Part shown: one piece after another, positions 36,001 through 41,964 of the stretch
Layout of the letters: each line of letters begins with the position of its first letter
How positions within the stretch are numbered: position 1 is the first letter of the stretch
IMG/VR virus record: IMGVR_UViG_3300034156_000013
Location: 1-41,964 of that record
DNA length: 41,964 nt
Direction: 5' to 3' (one strand)
Source of the DNA: a virus
Notes under the pieces: model-generated
The model's input: only the letters and a program-made list of their open reading frames with translations
Told to the model about the DNA's origin: nothing
Databases searched by the model: none
Program-made: the position numbers and the translations under genes

Positions 36001-36944
36001 AGATCGGCGGGCCGCTGGGCCAAGACAGCCGGGTAGTGTTCCCGTTCCAAGAGCCGGGCGACGTCAAGGTCTATGGCCGTGATTCGCTCAATGCCTTCGA
36101 CCGTATGGTACGGGCTGGCTCTAACGCGCTGCCATGGCTGTCCGGCTGGCACCACATGCACGCTGCACAGGTGCGTGGGATCAGCGAGCAGATCGTACAC
36201 AAGGCGTTCCGCTACATCAACCAAGGTGAGGAGAGCAGCGCACTGGTATCCATGGGCATTGGCCCGGACTTGGTTAGCCGCTTGCGTGCTGACATGCCAA
36301 ACATCGCTACATTCAACCCTGATGGCACGCTGGCCTCGCTGAACCTGACGAAAGCCACCGACCACGGCGCAGCAGCTGAGCTGGTGCAGGCGATTCACCG
36401 TGGCGGCAAGCAGATCGTACAGGGCACCTACATCGGAGAGACTGGCCGATGGGCGCACAGCGATCTGATGCGTATGCTGGTACAGTTCCGCTCATTCTCC
36501 ATCGTTGCTATGGAAAAGCAGTGGACTCGCCAGCGTGTGGACGAAGGCACCGCTAAGGCATTCGGCATCCTCATGGGCCAGATGGCATTCGCTCTGCCAA
36601 TCCACCTCAGCCGTGTAGCAATCAACGGCGCAACCCGCGAAGACAAGGAGCAATACTTCGAGACTCAGCTGCAACCGGCTATGCTGGCCCGCGCTGTGCT
36701 GAACTACACGTCAATCTCCGGCCTGTCCGGCGACGTGTTGGATGCAGGCTTCGCTGTTATGGGCGGCGAGGCTAGTGGCGTGCGTTCCGGTAGCAGCTCT
36801 GCGTTGGGTAACATCCCGGCACTTGGCTACATCGAGTCCGGCGCCAAGGTCATCAAGGAGAAGGACGCACGGGAAGCTATCCGTATGCTGCCCGGTGGCA
36901 ATCTGCCCTTCATCACACCGGTGCTCAATCACCTTACGGATTAA
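33024..36944 (+). CDS. Large internal virion protein, gp16-like, 1306 aa
   Basis: Size and position match T7 gp16 (1318 aa), the ejected protein that helps pull DNA into the cell. Ala-rich N-terminal region, a hydrophobic Gly-rich stretch (about residues 205-300, GTTMAVAAGLTGGFVDPVGW), then an unusual segment (about 319-435) with HVEEGYRRRGANTLMYDLL resembling GNAT motif A, and a long helical C-terminal half. I see no transglycosylase motif at the N-terminus, unlike T7. Between about 34880 and 35570 codon use shifts to T- and A-ending codons. An out-of-frame ORF is nested at 34939-35232. The stop TAA overlaps the next phage promoter. Confidence 0.92.
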   Translation: MDNMDTRPADIRAQVEQQKTDRQVGRILDKPAPTPTEKVAVNNAVTATMFAAQLTGAPERDAAAAGVAVRAAGIAAPEESVNALTAALPGNSQLVDVAAGLNKSLSQLDEKAAKAQVTGFGDQLAAGFSEMTAIPALLRRLERPTVTADPTFDYMSIRDKAEANRPEEDRKWLRESESEADLNQRILELKAKDERLATLGAHGTTMAVAAGLTGGFVDPVGWVATLGVGKVAQMAGIGARVAMLEGQLGKSVAYGALEGAAGNVLTEAALDAAGGHVTFSDYVTAAGMGTVFGQMHLLSGRPKTEQAAPDSPAPRRTDMETGADYTLKDGTPVVATRTQNEYGEIDITLHTPDGVKVGEVNGSAAEHGVNFPQPHVEEGYRRRGANTLMYDLLDETGGYTGTRDNTASARTSDGIAFWNTYEKGQSKAWRDGTPVGPRTPKEAAEDINAKAAQQNMDLYTQAQARAGADATPEDIRVEADNIMREQADSVNRIAFSEVPEQDRMMPLFDLEVREDGTVPSLDEVMQTPEVRTKVSDRWGINMHTVEDGTERKMMAETAARAEGWDRANPVDPERINSILARTPWLASSGLLLAKSENPVARMIAGVLLESSTGATGRRRTAAITKTMRERVYLEDLVGYEESYKQWRKQNGGSGYRDVIGSDHRSRFDRLVAADRENRRLGVAGSNDVSVRRAGDHLDSGYDRMRRDQQTVGTIGAARLGDTSVGYAHRSLSASWVMNAKPQEIEALSRKLAEQLSVGWDDVQFARQIATRYVERARSSAFGSAAVPANLASPEAASVLRDVLRSLSVGEQEIERAMGRFSRGGASHTKKRLDLDLSENVELPDGSSFPMMNAFETDQASMYMQYARRVSGDVALTQYGVMGDQGMKVLRKTMEFGPNGKKATADEMRAFDQIAAEFYGRPLDGTGNKYLGNLRMLTAASRLGGMAFTQFAEIANSVSLLGVNGALKQVAALPRLIADVHAGRPSELLKSIEQIGGPLGQDSRVVFPFQEPGDVKVYGRDSLNAFDRMVRAGSNALPWLSGWHHMHAAQVRGISEQIVHKAFRYINQGEESSALVSMGIGPDLVSRLRADMPNIATFNPDGTLASLNLTKATDHGAAAELVQAIHRGGKQIVQGTYIGETGRWAHSDLMRMLVQFRSFSIVAMEKQWTRQRVDEGTAKAFGILMGQMAFALPIHLSRVAINGATREDKEQYFETQLQPAMLARAVLNYTSISGLSGDVLDAGFAVMGGEASGVRSGSSSALGNIPALGYIESGAKVIKEKDAREAIRMLPGGNLPFITPVLNHLTD
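34939..35232 (+). CDS. Candidate nested membrane (holin-like) protein, 97 aa
   Basis: It lies wholly inside the gp16-like gene, in the frame shifted by +1. Three clean hydrophobic segments (about residues 14-30, 42-69 and 80-94) are separated by charged turns (RLTAKIDD; NRPWEPLARR), a class I holin-like topology. Alternative starts are ATG 34972 and ATG 34993. No good Shine-Dalgarno precedes any of them, which is the main argument against. The enclosing frame here favours T in third positions, which is exactly what makes the nested frame hydrophobic: this may reflect selection on the nested gene or a mosaic segment with chance effects. A 57-aa holin candidate exists elsewhere (39520), so this could be a second holin, an antiholin or an exclusion protein. 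Confidence 0.4.
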   Translation: MKNLTSNGESKMVVRATVMLLAVTTVLVSIDWLRLTAKIDDLALQALMMSVFVELVTISILATTACVVINRPWEPLARRAWVILLLGMHTVLFLHHG

Positions 36945-36976
36945 TTGGGCACCTTATCTATAGAAACCATTTAATG
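36942..36976 (+). promoter_or_regulatory. Phage RNA polymerase promoter for tail fibre, packaging and lysis genes
   Basis: TAATTGGGCACCTTATCTAT, then AGAAACCATTTAATG. The first triplet is the stop codon of the gp16-like gene. It is identical over 35 bases to the copies at 1646 and 22181. It is the last phage promoter before the genome end region. Confidence 0.9.
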
Positions 36977-36991
36977 GGGCCTGTAGGCCCC
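36976..36991 (+). other. 5' stem-loop downstream of the tail-fibre promoter
   Basis: GGGGCC, loop TGTA, GGCCCC, placed about 13 nt after the expected transcription start. It parallels the stem-loop after the capsid promoter (25765-25782), though the sequences differ. Probably a transcript-stabilising 5' hairpin. Confidence 0.6.
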
Positions 36992-37005
36992 TATAAGGAT
37001 TACAC

Positions 37006-39507
37006 ATGGCTTACCTCGCTACTAACATCTATGACGCAGACGGCGTGCGCACCGAGTGGGACTTCTCATTCGCTGGCGTTTCCCCCGACCGCGTGTCCGG
37101 TACTACTCCATACCTCTATCCAGAGGATGTGAAGGTGCAGGAACTGTACCGTGATGCCGAGGGCAACCCGAAGATGGTACAGCGCAGCGCCACCGTTATC
37201 GCACCGACGCGCATCCGCGTGAACGGCGCGCCAATCGTGTGGGGCAATCAGGTTAAGATTTACCGTGACACCGAGGTACGCTTCCCGCTGGTTGACTACC
37301 GCGACGGTCAGAACGTCAGCGAGCTTGATCTGGACCTGTCCGCACGCCAAGCTGTGTTCATTGCACAGGAAGCCCGTGACGCCACTCAGAACATGAACGT
37401 GGACGAGACAGGTGCCTTCAATGCTGGCGGTCGCCCTATCACTAACGTGGCAGATGGCGTTGCAGACAAGGATGCAGTAACCGTTCGCCAGCTCCAGCAC
37501 GCTGTTCGTGCCCCGGTTGGTGAGGGTGGCCTGCAATCGCTGCCATTCTCAGCACAGCGCGCTAACAAACTGCTGAGCTTCGACTCCGCAGGCCAGCCTG
37601 TTGTGGTTGCGGCGGCTAGCGGTTCGGCTACTGAGCTTGCCCTGAGCCTCGCGGACTTCTCCAGCGGCCTCAAGGGTGCTGGTCAGATTGGCTATGCGGC
37701 TAACCTCGGCTACCCGGCTAACACTGTGGGAGCCAAGCTGAACACCCTGACCTCCGCTGTGTCTGCCGCTACTGGCGATGGCTCGGCTAAGCAGGTGCGC
37801 AGCTACTTGGAAGCAAGCTCTGTCGGCAACCTCGGTAACTTGGCTGTCTACAACCAAGCGCTGAACTCCGGCGTAGTCCGTATCGCATTCGTCGGTGACT
37901 CGATCATCGAAGGCTTTTATGACGGCGTGTACGAGAACAGCACCGCGTCCACCATCATGCGAATCCTGCGTCAGCAGAACCCCGGCGTCAAGTTCGTCTT
38001 CGGCAACTTCTCGTTGGCTGGTCGCGCCTCGACGCACTACGGCCTCGACACCTATGTCGGCCAAGCTGTGGAGGACATCACCACTGGCTTCAAACGCCCA
38101 GCTGGCGCAGACGACACCGCACTGTGGCCGGGTGGCTCGGTAGTGGGTAAGTCTTGGATGAACACCGTCCGCGACTTTACACCAGACTTAGTGTTCCTGA
38201 TGTTCGGTGCTAACGACCTGTCCGGCAACAGCGGGTACAACGTCGAGATTCTGCGCCGTATCATCGCCGCACAGAACCTGTGGGCCAAGAAGCCATCGGT
38301 TGCTGTAGCTGCTGCTGCCCTGCCTACCACTGCGATCTATCAAGAGCCAGTGCAAATCTCGGCTAACGGCGTGCGCGGCTTTGCCCGTGAGAACAACATC
38401 ACCCTGATTGACACCAACCGCCTGTACCTGCAAGCGACTCGTGGTGTGGACATCGACAACCCGATCTTCCTGCGCAAGCACAACTTCACTCAGTGGAGTA
38501 CCGAGTGGAGCAAGTTCCCGGCTGACGGCCTGTCCGCTACTCCCGACGCCCTTGTGGTTGTTGGCGAGGGTATGGCAATGCGTCCGGGTCTGATCTGCGA
38601 AGACATCAAGATCAGCGCCACGTTCAACCGTGCCAACATCGCCGCACAGTCGTCGGGTATCTACTACCGCTCGCTGGGCACTGGCCTGACTCAGTACACT
38701 GCCATGCTCACACCGGGCGGCGTAGTGCTCTACTGGGGCAGCACCCCAATTGCCAGCTACACCTATGCCTTTACCGGCGGTGTTGATTACGAGCTGACTG
38801 TCGTGAACCGTGGCTGCCGTCACATCGTTCTGCTCAATGGCCGCGAGGTCATCAACCAGTTCGACTACAACAACGTGCTGCGTGGCTCCATCGGCGTGTT
38901 CATGCAAGGTGGTTATGGCGTCATCAGCAATCTGCGTGTCTATCCGGGGAACTCGTTCACCGCTGGCCGCACTGAGCTGACTGCGCTGGACACCTACGGC
39001 CCGGACGACTTCAACACGAACGAGAACAGCCTCGGCGGTAACGGTATCAACCACCCGACCAAACTGGCTACCTCGATCATTTGGGCGGCGGGCTTCCGTG
39101 AGTTCCTGCGACACACCAACGATGTTGCCCGTGGCTTGCTGTCGGCTACCATCGGCGGGCGCGCTACAAGCACCTACAACTTCGCAGTTGCTGGAGCTGA
39201 GGCTACCGTCACCACGTCGATCAATGGCATTCGCGGCAACGACACTGGGCTGCTTATCTCGGGCACCAGTGCTCTCGCCACCGCCTCGGACGTGCGCTAC
39301 GTTGTAGTAACCACTCCCGGCACCACTACCCGTGTGCAGGCTCTCCTGACCACTGGCGGTGTTGACACCTCGTTCTGCGAGGTTGACGTACCGCTGCCAC
39401 CGGGCCGCTGGTGTGTACATGCACAAGTTCACTGTTCCAAATCCGCTGCGGGCGTAGTCCGCAACACCCTCTCCCTCACCGCTACCAAGAGCGTACCACT
39501 TAACTAA
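37006..39507 (+). CDS. Tail fibre/spike with SGNH-hydrolase domain and inserted lectin-like module
   Basis: 833 residues. Residues 1-150 are the T7 gp17-type virion attachment domain (start MAYLATNIYDADGVRTEWDF). Residues about 290-500 and 660-710 form an SGNH/GDSL esterase: FVGDSIIEG with S299, MFGANDLSG with N403, and NGINHP with H683; a canonical Asp three residues before the His is not evident. Between the blocks, about residues 520-655 form a beta-sandwich-like insertion (YELTVVNRGCRHIVLLNGRE, GSIGVFMQGGYGVISNLRV), like LamG/carbohydrate-binding modules. The C-terminal 110 residues are Thr-rich beta. Likely binds and deacetylates surface polysaccharide. It has its own promoter and 5' hairpin. 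Confidence 0.9.
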   Translation: MAYLATNIYDADGVRTEWDFSFAGVSPDRVSGTTPYLYPEDVKVQELYRDAEGNPKMVQRSATVIAPTRIRVNGAPIVWGNQVKIYRDTEVRFPLVDYRDGQNVSELDLDLSARQAVFIAQEARDATQNMNVDETGAFNAGGRPITNVADGVADKDAVTVRQLQHAVRAPVGEGGLQSLPFSAQRANKLLSFDSAGQPVVVAAASGSATELALSLADFSSGLKGAGQIGYAANLGYPANTVGAKLNTLTSAVSAATGDGSAKQVRSYLEASSVGNLGNLAVYNQALNSGVVRIAFVGDSIIEGFYDGVYENSTASTIMRILRQQNPGVKFVFGNFSLAGRASTHYGLDTYVGQAVEDITTGFKRPAGADDTALWPGGSVVGKSWMNTVRDFTPDLVFLMFGANDLSGNSGYNVEILRRIIAAQNLWAKKPSVAVAAAALPTTAIYQEPVQISANGVRGFARENNITLIDTNRLYLQATRGVDIDNPIFLRKHNFTQWSTEWSKFPADGLSATPDALVVVGEGMAMRPGLICEDIKISATFNRANIAAQSSGIYYRSLGTGLTQYTAMLTPGGVVLYWGSTPIASYTYAFTGGVDYELTVVNRGCRHIVLLNGREVINQFDYNNVLRGSIGVFMQGGYGVISNLRVYPGNSFTAGRTELTALDTYGPDDFNTNENSLGGNGINHPTKLATSIIWAAGFREFLRHTNDVARGLLSATIGGRATSTYNFAVAGAEATVTTSINGIRGNDTGLLISGTSALATASDVRYVVVTTPGTTTRVQALLTTGGVDTSFCEVDVPLPPGRWCVHAQVHCSKSAAGVVRNTLSLTATKSVPLN

Positions 39508-39519
39508 GGAGTAACACTG

Positions 39520-39693
39520 ATGGATAAGTCCACCAACTTGCAGACTGCTATGGTAGCTCTGCAAGCGTGGGCTGTTGGGCTGTCAAGCTGGTTCATCTCC
39601 GCACTGCCAACGGTAGTGCTGGTGATGTCCGCTACATTGACCGGCTTACAGCTCTACGTTTTCATGCGTGACAAACTTACTAAAAAGGATTAA
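39520..39693 (+). CDS. Holin candidate (T7 gp17.5-like), 57 aa
   Basis: MDKSTNLQTAMVALQAWAVG..., with one strongly hydrophobic region (about residues 13-48, interrupted by Ser/Thr) and a basic tail (MRDKLTKKD). AAGGAG lies upstream of ATG 39520. Size, position between tail fibre and small terminase, and the charged C-terminus match gp17.5 of T7, the class II holin. It could form one or two membrane helices. With a SAR-like endolysin elsewhere, it might act as a pinholin; this is inferred. Confidence 0.75.
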   Translation: MDKSTNLQTAMVALQAWAVGLSSWFISALPTVVLVMSATLTGLQLYVFMRDKLTKKD

Positions 39694-39696
39694 GCT

Positions 39697-40005
39697 ATGG
39701 CTGCCTCTGAGAAGATGATGGGCCAGCTCCATGAGATGTTTGCACAGTACCTCATGGACTGTATGACCCGCAAGGGCACCGACGAGGACGGTAACTCGTA
39801 TCCGATCCCGATGACTGCGGCTGAGGCTGCGGTACTGCGGGCATTCCTCAAGGACAACAACATTCAAGCAGACCCCGACGCGAGTACAGACCTCAAGGTT
39901 CTGGACAGCGCTATGCGCCGCGCAACTATGGGCGTCGTCTCCACTGAGGAGATGGACGCACTGATGCGGGACTTCGAAAACTTCACTGGCGGTAACATGC
40001 AATGA
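39697..40005 (+). CDS. Small terminase subunit, gp18-like
   Basis: 102 residues, near T7 gp18 (89), immediately before and overlapping (ATGA) the large terminase. Helical sequence with MTAAEAAVLRAFLKDNNIQADP (about residues 39-60), a segment typical of small terminases of this group, and an acidic C-terminal part (MDALMRDFENF). It recognises phage DNA and regulates packaging. AAGGA precedes the ATG. Confidence 0.88.
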   Translation: MAASEKMMGQLHEMFAQYLMDCMTRKGTDEDGNSYPIPMTAAEAAVLRAFLKDNNIQADPDASTDLKVLDSAMRRATMGVVSTEEMDALMRDFENFTGGNMQ

Positions 40006-41768
40006 GTGACGTGGTAGTAACAGCAGCTGAGAAACAACTGCTGTTCCTCCAGAAGATGTTCCCTACGTTCGACCGCTTTCTGATAGTGATGATGACCGCT
40101 CTCGGTTACTCCACTACTCAGTTGCAGTTGGACATCGGGCGCTATCTGGAGAACGGCCCCAAGGACTTAATGATTCAGGCCCAACGGGGTCAAGCTAAGT
40201 CCACCATTACAGCTCTGTTCGCTATCTGGTACTTGATCCACCATCCGAAAGGCTCGGTGCTGATCGTGTCTGCCGGTGGCAAACAGGCTAACGAGATTAG
40301 TACTCTGATCGTCAAGACGATTATGAACGTGGACATCCTGACGTGCTTGCGGCCTAATCAGGCGCGCAATGACCGTCAGTCGGTGGAAGCATTCGACATC
40401 AACTTCGACCTGCGTGGAGTACAGAAGTCCCCGTCCGTTGCGTGTACCGGTATCACTGGTAACTTGCAAGGTAAGCGCGCAACCCTGCTTATCGCGGATG
40501 ACGTGGAGTCAATGAAGAATGGTCGCACGGCCATGATGCGTGAGCTGCTGATGCAGAACTGCCGGGACTTCGCGTCTATCGTGCAGGACGCTGCGGGCCG
40601 TATCGTGTACCTCGGTACACCGCAGACCGACAGCTCGATCTACAACCAGCTGAGTGCCATGGGCTTCGCCCTGCGCATCTGGCCGGGCCGCTACCCTACC
40701 GACGAGCAGCTGGGCCACTATGGCGCATGCCTCGCCCCGTCGCTTATGGAGGCGTTGATCGAAGACCCGTCCCTACAGACGGGCGGCGGCTTGGACGGCC
40801 TACAGGGCCAGCCTACGGACGCTCAGCTCATGCCAGAGGAGTCCCTACAAGCCAAGGAGATGAAGCAAGGCCCTGCCTTCTTCCAGCTCCAGCACATGCT
40901 GTCCACCAAGCTCGCTGACGCCCTGCGTTACCCGCTCAAGCTGGTCAACATGGTGGTGATGCGACTGGGTGATTTGCTCCCGGTCTCTGTCGTCCGTGGT
41001 ATGTCTCACGACTACATCAAGGACTATCAGGTAGGGTCGCTCAAGGTACAGCTCAGCGCGCCCCAGTACGTCTCTCAGGACGTTGTGAAGCCGACCTTCC
41101 GCCACATGCGGATTGACCCGGCTGGTGGTGGTAAGAACGGTGACGAAACGGCCTATGCAGTGAGCGAACAGCTCAACGGTACAGTGTACCTGCGTGCGGC
41201 TGGCGGCGTTCCCGGTGGCTTTGAGGACAAGGACTTGACCCGGCTGGCGCAGATCGTGGCCCGTTGGGCGCCTGACGTGCTGGACATTGAGAAGAACTTC
41301 GGCTTCGGTGCCTTCACCAAAGTGTTTATGCCGTATCTCGATAAGGCTGGCTGGAAGGGCGGCATCAACGAGACCTTTGAGTCCACTAACAAAGAGCTGC
41401 GTATCATCGACACCCTTGAGCCTATGCTCGGTCGCGGTTCGCTCGTTATCGACGAGACCATCGTACTCGATGACTGGGATAGCACTCAAGCTCACCCGAT
41501 GGACAAGCGTCAGGGGTACTCCCTGCTGCAACAGATCGCCAAGATCACAAGGGACTCAGGTTGCCTTGTGCATGACGATAGACTCGATGCGGTCGCCGGT
41601 ACATGCGGCTACTGGATCGGGCAGATGAACCAAGACTCGACTCGTAGAGAGGCCGAGGCACGGGCTGCTATCCTCGCTGAGAAGATGGCTGACCCATTCA
41701 ACTACAGACGGTATGACCGCCCCGGCGCCCAATCCAGTGGCCTCGGCTCGGTAATCCGTAGACGCTAA
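40002..41768 (+). CDS. Large terminase subunit (packaging ATPase/nuclease), gp19-like
   Basis: 588 residues, like T7 gp19 (586). Walker A variant IQAQRGQAKST with K66; Walker B LLIADDVESM (about residues 163-172), where the DD supplies the catalytic acid region; and coupling motif VYLGTPQTDSS. Nuclease acidic residues: RIDPAGGGKNGDET, LDIEKNFG and HDDRLDAVAG near the C-terminus. It cuts concatemers and drives DNA into the head. Coupled to small terminase by ATGA. Confidence 0.96.
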   Translation: MSDVVVTAAEKQLLFLQKMFPTFDRFLIVMMTALGYSTTQLQLDIGRYLENGPKDLMIQAQRGQAKSTITALFAIWYLIHHPKGSVLIVSAGGKQANEISTLIVKTIMNVDILTCLRPNQARNDRQSVEAFDINFDLRGVQKSPSVACTGITGNLQGKRATLLIADDVESMKNGRTAMMRELLMQNCRDFASIVQDAAGRIVYLGTPQTDSSIYNQLSAMGFALRIWPGRYPTDEQLGHYGACLAPSLMEALIEDPSLQTGGGLDGLQGQPTDAQLMPEESLQAKEMKQGPAFFQLQHMLSTKLADALRYPLKLVNMVVMRLGDLLPVSVVRGMSHDYIKDYQVGSLKVQLSAPQYVSQDVVKPTFRHMRIDPAGGGKNGDETAYAVSEQLNGTVYLRAAGGVPGGFEDKDLTRLAQIVARWAPDVLDIEKNFGFGAFTKVFMPYLDKAGWKGGINETFESTNKELRIIDTLEPMLGRGSLVIDETIVLDDWDSTQAHPMDKRQGYSLLQQIAKITRDSGCLVHDDRLDAVAGTCGYWIGQMNQDSTRREAEARAAILAEKMADPFNYRRYDRPGAQSSGLGSVIRRR

Positions 41769-41780
41769 AGGAGATACACC

Positions 41781-41964
41781 ATGCAAGCTTCCGATCTGCT
41801 CTATCCCGGCTACACCGGTCCTAACGAACGCATTCGCCGTGACGTTGCCTTTGCTATCTCCAAACTGGAGTCGGCCAAGGGCCTCGGTGCACCAGACAAG
41901 CCAGCCTTCGCGCTGTTCTTAGCTGATGCTGCTACCAAGACTCCAGGCTATGCTGGCCCTATCC
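41781..41964 (+). CDS. Putative head-fibre/decoration-like protein, N-terminal part (continues at 1-372)
   Basis: ATG 41781 with AAGGAG 9 nt upstream. The window ends after 61 codons. The frame continues at base 1: codon 20 here (41838) equals the first codon at position 1. The N-terminus MQASDLLYPGYTGPNERIRR and the helix IRRDVAFAISKLESAKGLG suggest a folded or coiled-coil head, followed by the Ala/Val/Thr-rich beta-like tail described for 1-372. Function inferred only from composition and position after the terminase. Confidence 0.75.
   Translation, partial: MQASDLLYPGYTGPNERIRRDVAFAISKLESAKGLGAPDKPAFALFLADAATKTPGYAGPI
41838..41964. repeat. Exact terminal overlap of the contig (copy 2)
   Basis: This is the second copy of the 127-base overlap and is identical to positions 1-127. 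Joining the copies restores a 142-residue reading frame that starts at 41781 and ends at 372. Confidence 0.95.

Follow-up and report, generated by a model that had tools for sequence, protein, structure and literature searches.

A T7-type tail fibre with a predicted lectin-like beta-sandwich inserted into its SGNH esterase domain, a probable polysaccharide O-deacetylase

A tail fibre gene on a virus contig raises the question of how an SGNH esterase could work when its serine and histidine blocks lie 384 residues apart (S299 to H683) and its His block lacks the usual Asp. The window analysed here is the whole 41,964-base contig (IMGVR_UViG_3300034156_000013), in which eight ORFs were tested and the gene order was of the T7-like podovirus type: RNA polymerase, two tail proteins, three internal virion proteins, the fibre gene, and the small and large terminase subunits, with the internal virion protein genes upstream of the fibre gene and the terminase genes downstream as in T7-like phages. 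The top-scoring named phage for the window end was Pseudomonas phage VSW-3 (72.4% DNA identity over 56% of positions 36500–41964), a likeness that makes Pseudomonas the putative host. The VSW-3 fibre is 58.6% identical to the window fibre over aa ~3–163 only and carries a pectate-lyase-like domain (PF12708) past this region; since only the N-terminus is shared and the VSW-3 tip is pectate-lyase-like, the fibre tips of the two viruses differ, as is common among fibres. A small ORF (39520–39693, + strand), coding for 57 residues that include a hydrophobic stretch, lies between the fibre gene and the gene for the small terminase subunit, which is the usual holin position in T7-like phages.

The fibre ORF (37006–39507) is open throughout and encodes 833 aa that make up a tail fibre of the T7 type, with a gp17-like N-terminus, a stalk and a split SGNH esterase; all features given below are on the + strand of the window. 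The T7 gp17-like N-terminal domain (aa 1–166; 37006–37503) was assigned from PF03906 (aa 58–166, E 3.5e-19, 69.5 bits against a cut-off of 25.2) and from the identity to VSW-3, and presumably mediates virion attachment. It is followed by a putative stalk or linker (aa 167–280; 37504–37845) that reaches to the start of the modelled SGNH part and has a PF05662 (YadA_stalk) match directly ahead of it at aa 145–167. The first half of the SGNH esterase with blocks I–III (aa 281–484; 37846–38457) was assigned from PF00657, an AlphaFold2 model and a structural match to the mannan acetylesterase RiCE17. PF00657 (Lipase_GDSL) passed its curated cut-off of 23.6 bits with a score of 29.8 and PF13472 was narrowly below its cut-off (30.6 against 32.9 bits); the matches end at residues 515 and 476, and thus both stop short of H683. 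Block I is GDS (aa 297–299; 37894–37902) with S299 as the likely nucleophile, and the profile of alignment A5 (positions 13–184 aligned with Axe2 9–177) is compatible with an equivalence of S299 and Axe2 S15 if the stretch is assumed to be gapless. The block II glycine, G339 (38020–38022), is a candidate oxyanion-hole residue in a conserved column, invariant or almost invariant in alignments A1–A3; in A5 it is G in 27/32 rows (A in three, S in one, a gap in one). Block III is GAND (aa 401–404; 38206–38217), whose N403, the other candidate for the oxyanion hole, is present in 32/32 A5 rows. The second half of the esterase (aa 652–708; 38959–39129) contains block V and the last helix, which follows block V at model residues 406–428; block V is GGNGINHP (aa 677–684; 39034–39057), with H683 as the putative catalytic His and N682 at −1. 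S299, N403 and H683 are found exactly at the residues that had been named in the sequence-only reading of this locus. The C-terminal domain (aa 709–833; 39130–39504) is mostly strand in a low-confidence model and may form a trimer tip or a receptor contact; blastp alignments of the window fibre to L037, L008 and L050 continue through it.

For structure prediction, aa 281–712 were modelled with AlphaFold2 from the 32 related sequences of A5, which gave a pLDDT of 92.0 and a pTM of 0.89, with every residue at 50 or above. An earlier model from 17 rows was of low confidence (pLDDT 53.3, pTM 0.47); its Foldseek matches included SGNH esterases, and conclusions were drawn without it. The best PDB matches listed by Foldseek for the 32-row model were CBM66 (4b1m, E 1.5e-10) and RiCE17 (E 6.8e-10); the Foldseek alignment to RiCE17 spans both domains with an rmsd of 20.6, and the domains were separated by VIA-align alone. 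In VIA-align the alpha/beta/alpha SGNH fold predicted for the window fibre was matched by model residues 1–432 on residues 19–220 of RiCE17 chain 6hfz_C (Z 20.2, rmsd 2.5, 197 aligned) and by model residues 3–431 on Axe2 (4jj4; Z 19.0, rmsd 3.3, 194 aligned), and the model ranges on SGNH chains extended to 421–432. PDB profile matches to the SGNH domain were 6hfz (E 7e-9) and 7ddy (E 2.4e-8). According to the model, the two flanks of the insert form one continuous SGNH domain; because both halves superpose on one such domain, as read from the first and last aligned residues of the VIA-align matches, S299 and H683 would lie in one site.

The segment between the halves (aa 485–651; 38458–38958) was assigned as an inserted lectin-like or CBM66-like beta-sandwich from its fold match, the insert profile and an insert-less homologue. 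The model shows eleven strands in it from position 222 to position 372, each at least three residues long, and structural matches to it cover model residues 205–371, those to CBM66 212–370. The closest VIA-align match was the CBM66 4azz (model 212–370, Z 20.9, rmsd 2.1, 150 aligned), and the next ones listed were galactocerebrosidase (Z 19.2), ERGIC-53 (17.7) and legume lectins (16.3–16.5). Without recourse to the model, CBM66 was also found among PDB sequences by a profile built from 11 inserts (E 4.4e-7), and PF06439 matched 7 of these 11 sequences (best E 2.5e-4), the window insert not being among them; searched alone against Pfam, the window insert had no match at E 1. For the Possum branch, a profile built from 12 inserts gave no PDB match better than E 0.11, so the sequence-level likeness to CBM66 is limited to the branch near the window. 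The sandwich match lists also contain glucanases, SPRY domains, clostridial neurotoxin binding parts and other unrelated jelly-rolls, and the likeness of the insert to SPRY, neurotoxin and other jelly-rolls is at the level of the fold only. The insert is thus predicted to be a lectin-like beta-sandwich, closest to CBM66 and then to lectins, with putative sugar binding. The sandwich proposed for the middle segment was borne out by the AlphaFold2 model with its Foldseek and VIA-align matches, whereas the edges first suggested, 520–655, have to be moved to about 485–651 on the evidence of model strands and structural matches.

The insert could also be a structural piece, lid-like, that closes the active-site cleft or aids trimerisation, and not a CBM, a reading that we regard as possible and somewhat doubtful. 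The sandwich fold is widespread and for this reason no proof of sugar binding, and in CE20 an inserted beta-sandwich is described as helping to form the cleft and to hold water near the His (PMC12313940). Against a mere lid stands that the top match of the insert, by sequence profile as well as by fold, is a true CBM. The insert was also less conserved than the core in 7/7 close rows (L037: 34% against 52%; L044: 25% against 27%), which fits a receptor-contact surface and equally fits a mere lack of constraint.

The position of the insert is marked by a homologue without it, an SGNH enzyme encoded at L050:8813–9682 (− strand), which has 21 residues at the insert site, keeps GGNGINHP and matches the full PF13472 profile (1–178 of 178, E 1.6e-17). 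Its first residues resemble a signal sequence and end in LAAC, which we take to be a lipobox of the lipoprotein type. The core of this enzyme is 29.2% identical to that of a split SGNH tail fibre on the same contig (L050:4978–7344, + strand) and 35.2% identical to that of the window fibre, and phmmer gave no PDB match to it at E 0.01. Its gene is flanked on one side by an endolysin-like M15 peptidase gene together with two small ORFs and on the other by the gene for a phage integrase. Such a location is a usual one for lysogenic-conversion genes; by removing the acetyl groups of the receptor on the lysogen, the enzyme might keep related phages out.

Searches with exact peptides confirmed no close relative of the C-terminal part in viral contigs or genome contigs, and this part had no match in plasmids. 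Entry into the family was gained by tblastn of the C-terminal part, which matched four phage records only (E 0.2–0.4); these represent two proteins, one of Kayfunavirus BDX03P1 and one of Escherichia phage anhysbys, both having the block order of the window fibre and GGNG[LI]NHP. When the anhysbys protein was used as query in turn, gp66 of Pectobacterium phage Possum was matched (E 3e-21). Viral contigs were then scanned for further members by means of alignments, individual proteins and the motif; two loci of the last scan (L078, L080) were rejected as chance matches. Six-frame ORFs of at least 150 aa in 77 loci were searched with an HMM and contained duplicates were removed, which left a non-redundant set of 48 ORFs that carry the block V motif, including the named phages and one insert-less enzyme. 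The Ser was called in 43 of these 48, with a spacing to the His of 348–417 residues in 39 and of 213 in the minus-strand ORF of L050; it was mis-called in three (L039, L044 and L048), which also span the insert when read by eye, L039 having SDS in place of GDS, and was not called in five. In A5, where row L048 was trimmed too short and is without its true GDS, the insert measures 137–186 aa in 31 of 32 rows and 21 aa in one; in alignment A3, 16/17 rows match PF13472 at E 0.1. The closest relative found is L037 (L037:1293–3560, − strand; 43% identity over 554 residues), whose block I reads ADS in place of GDS. The split layout is thus that of a recurrent phage family and not peculiar to the window fibre. 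A search of open-access papers found no name or description for such a family.

Among 398 genomes of the phylum of G003, four had a match at E 1e-10: G003 itself, G274 with most of the model covered, and two others with partial matches. The SGNH-core branch length between L026, a MAG labelled Alphaproteobacteria, and the virus contig L058 is practically zero, and the L026 contig is therefore probably prophage or phage DNA. Split SGNH genes occur in adjacent tandem pairs in three contigs (L008: 3434–5641 and 5645–7195; L012: 997–3396 and 3530–5455; L028: 3164–5545 and 5636–7579), which suggests duplicated or paired receptor-binding fibres.

Activity has been described for one member of this family. 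Treatment of the host O-polysaccharide with a Possum gp66 fragment lacking aa 1–196 removed the 2-O-acetyl group as followed by NMR, the O-acetyl signals disappearing with a shift as expected for de-O-acetylated rhamnose, and this fragment was trimeric and bound the polysaccharide (PMC9569702). The window model matched the predicted folds of Possum gp66 (E 1.1e-25, TMq 0.64) and the anhysbys protein (E 1.7e-25, TMq 0.66) over both domains, and the remaining predicted viral proteins among the best 50 listed reached a TMq of at most 0.33. Possum gp66 and the window fibre are homologous in the SGNH domain and the insert and share the GGNGINHP block, whereas they are only 22.5% identical and differ in host and in the N-terminal part, which in the N4-like phage Possum involves an adapter protein. 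The main text of the Possum paper does not contain the terms inserted, CBM, lectin, carbohydrate-binding or sandwich (PMC9569702).

Parts of the architecture have precedents. SGNH tail fibres are described in Pectobacterium phage Q19 (PMC7693777) and in Klebsiella prophages, with esterase activity demonstrated for two of the latter (PMC13123978), and CBMs inserted into SGNH enzymes are already known (PMC9487903, PMC12313940). RiCE17/CEX (6hfz, 6hh9), the top SGNH chain by VIA-align and profile with Z scores within 1 counted as tied, also combines SGNH and CBM, but its CBM35 is appended C-terminally whereas the window module is inserted (PMC9487903). G7C gp63.1 (4qnl; Z 16.6, 197 aligned) has the SGNH fold in an O-antigen-deacetylating phage receptor-binding protein, but its aligned range of 240 residues (256–495) is too short for the 167-residue insert of the window fibre. 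The CBM66 of Bacillus subtilis levanase (4azz, 4b1m) resembles the insert in fold and profile at 17% identity and belongs to a levanase, whereas the window insert belongs to an esterase. NmApe1, compared from its description, is a cellular SGNH esterase with an inserted CBM like the window fibre (PMC9487903). In the Dit proteins of streptococcal phages a CBM is likewise inserted in an adhesion-device domain, but that domain has a galectin fold and is not an enzyme as in the window fibre (PMC9437275). CE20 enzymes with an ancillary domain (Fl8CE20_II, PpCE20_II) carry a beta-sandwich between the SGNH Ser and His blocks, with a His that makes no direct Asp contact; by description, their insert is GH2-like with the motif DxH, whereas that of the window fibre is CBM66/lectin-like with N-x-x-N-H, and they are bacterial enzymes with two further flanking beta-sandwiches, whereas the window protein is a tail fibre (PMC12313940). 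The CE20 structures 9H4U and 9EGA were not among the 50 matches listed, which says nothing either way on likeness to CE20.

The window fibre is thus likely to be a T7-like podovirus tail fibre that doubles as a polysaccharide O-deacetylase, with a CBM66/lectin-like sandwich inserted before the His block. The computation gives the domain order, predicted folds, insert position, family and Asp-less His block; activity, substrate, sugar binding and the support of the His are inferred as follows. The gp17-like N-terminus would anchor the fibre to the tail, and the SGNH esterase near the tip would strip O-acetyl groups from the host surface polysaccharide and leave the chain uncut. Catalysis would be by S299 and H683 with an oxyanion hole of G339 and N403, following SGNH chemistry (PMC9487903). 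Since the insert lies between block III and the His block, it is expected beside the active site, where it may hold or position the sugar. Like the His of CE2 and CE20 enzymes, H683 probably owes its orientation to a backbone carbonyl, a water molecule, the invariant Asn next to it or an Asp of the linker. The O-deacetylase activity is proposed from the homology to Possum gp66; against it count the low identity between the two and the possibility that fibres of this kind switch substrates quickly.

The lack of an Asp at −3 to the His, noted in the sequence-only reading, is confirmed: this position is G680 in the window fibre, and in block V of A5 the position is G in 27 rows, A in four, N in one and Asp in none, with H and N kept in 32/32. 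As 20 of the 32 rows are on contigs retrieved by a pattern requiring the block V motif, these rows are not countable as evidence for its conservation; in the eight proteins found by other routes (BDX03P1, anhysbys and Possum by tblastn, two L008 ORFs, L009, L010 and L028) the Asn before the His was present in 8/8 and Asp at −3 in 0/8, and block V of L009, L010 and L028 lies outside the search pattern used. The Asp is usual in SGNH block V and not universal, as active CE2 enzymes have Ser-His dyads without Asp that are supported by main-chain carbonyls (PMC9487903), and in CE20 the inserted beta-sandwich helps to hold a water between the His and an Asp/Asn (PMC12313940). The modified triad of the sequence-only reading therefore stands as an Asp-less His block, and with CE2 and CE20 as precedents it is a family trait and not an unprecedented one.

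Candidate supports of the His in the window family are N682 (32/32), D469 (32/32), D482 (30/32) and a carbonyl of the insert. An ordinary triad in space, with the catalytic acid supplied from elsewhere, e.g. the linker residues D469 or D482, is unlikely: both columns are Asp in the proportions just given and D482 sits at the insert entry, but at the D482 position L068 has Val and the insert-less homologue shows a gap. It is likewise a tentative and rather improbable idea that the inserted lectin completes the active site, with a carbonyl or bound water against H683 replacing the Asp as in CE20, so that the esterase would be assembled only when sugar-bound. A catalytically dead SGNH fold turned sugar-binding receptor domain, with the loss of the Asp as decay, would agree with Asp at −3 in 0/32 rows and with the ADS of L037, but is very improbable, as the Asn and His are retained in 32/32 A5 rows even where identity to the window fibre falls to 16%, Possum gp66 is active although it has this very His block (PMC9569702), Asp-less CE2 SGNH enzymes are active (PMC9487903) and the CE20 Asp/Asn acts via water alone (PMC12313940).

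Each element of the O-deacetylase fibre preferred here has a precedent (SGNH fibres, a CBM in an SGNH enzyme, Asp-less sites), and the combination as a phage family was not found described in the open-access papers searched. The GGNGxNHP motif provides a handle for finding further members, and a proven deacetylase and an insert-less homologue within the family make the role of the insert, whether in binding, in catalysis or in both, directly testable. If the insert does complete the active site, receptor binding and receptor modification would be mechanically coupled across a large phage family.
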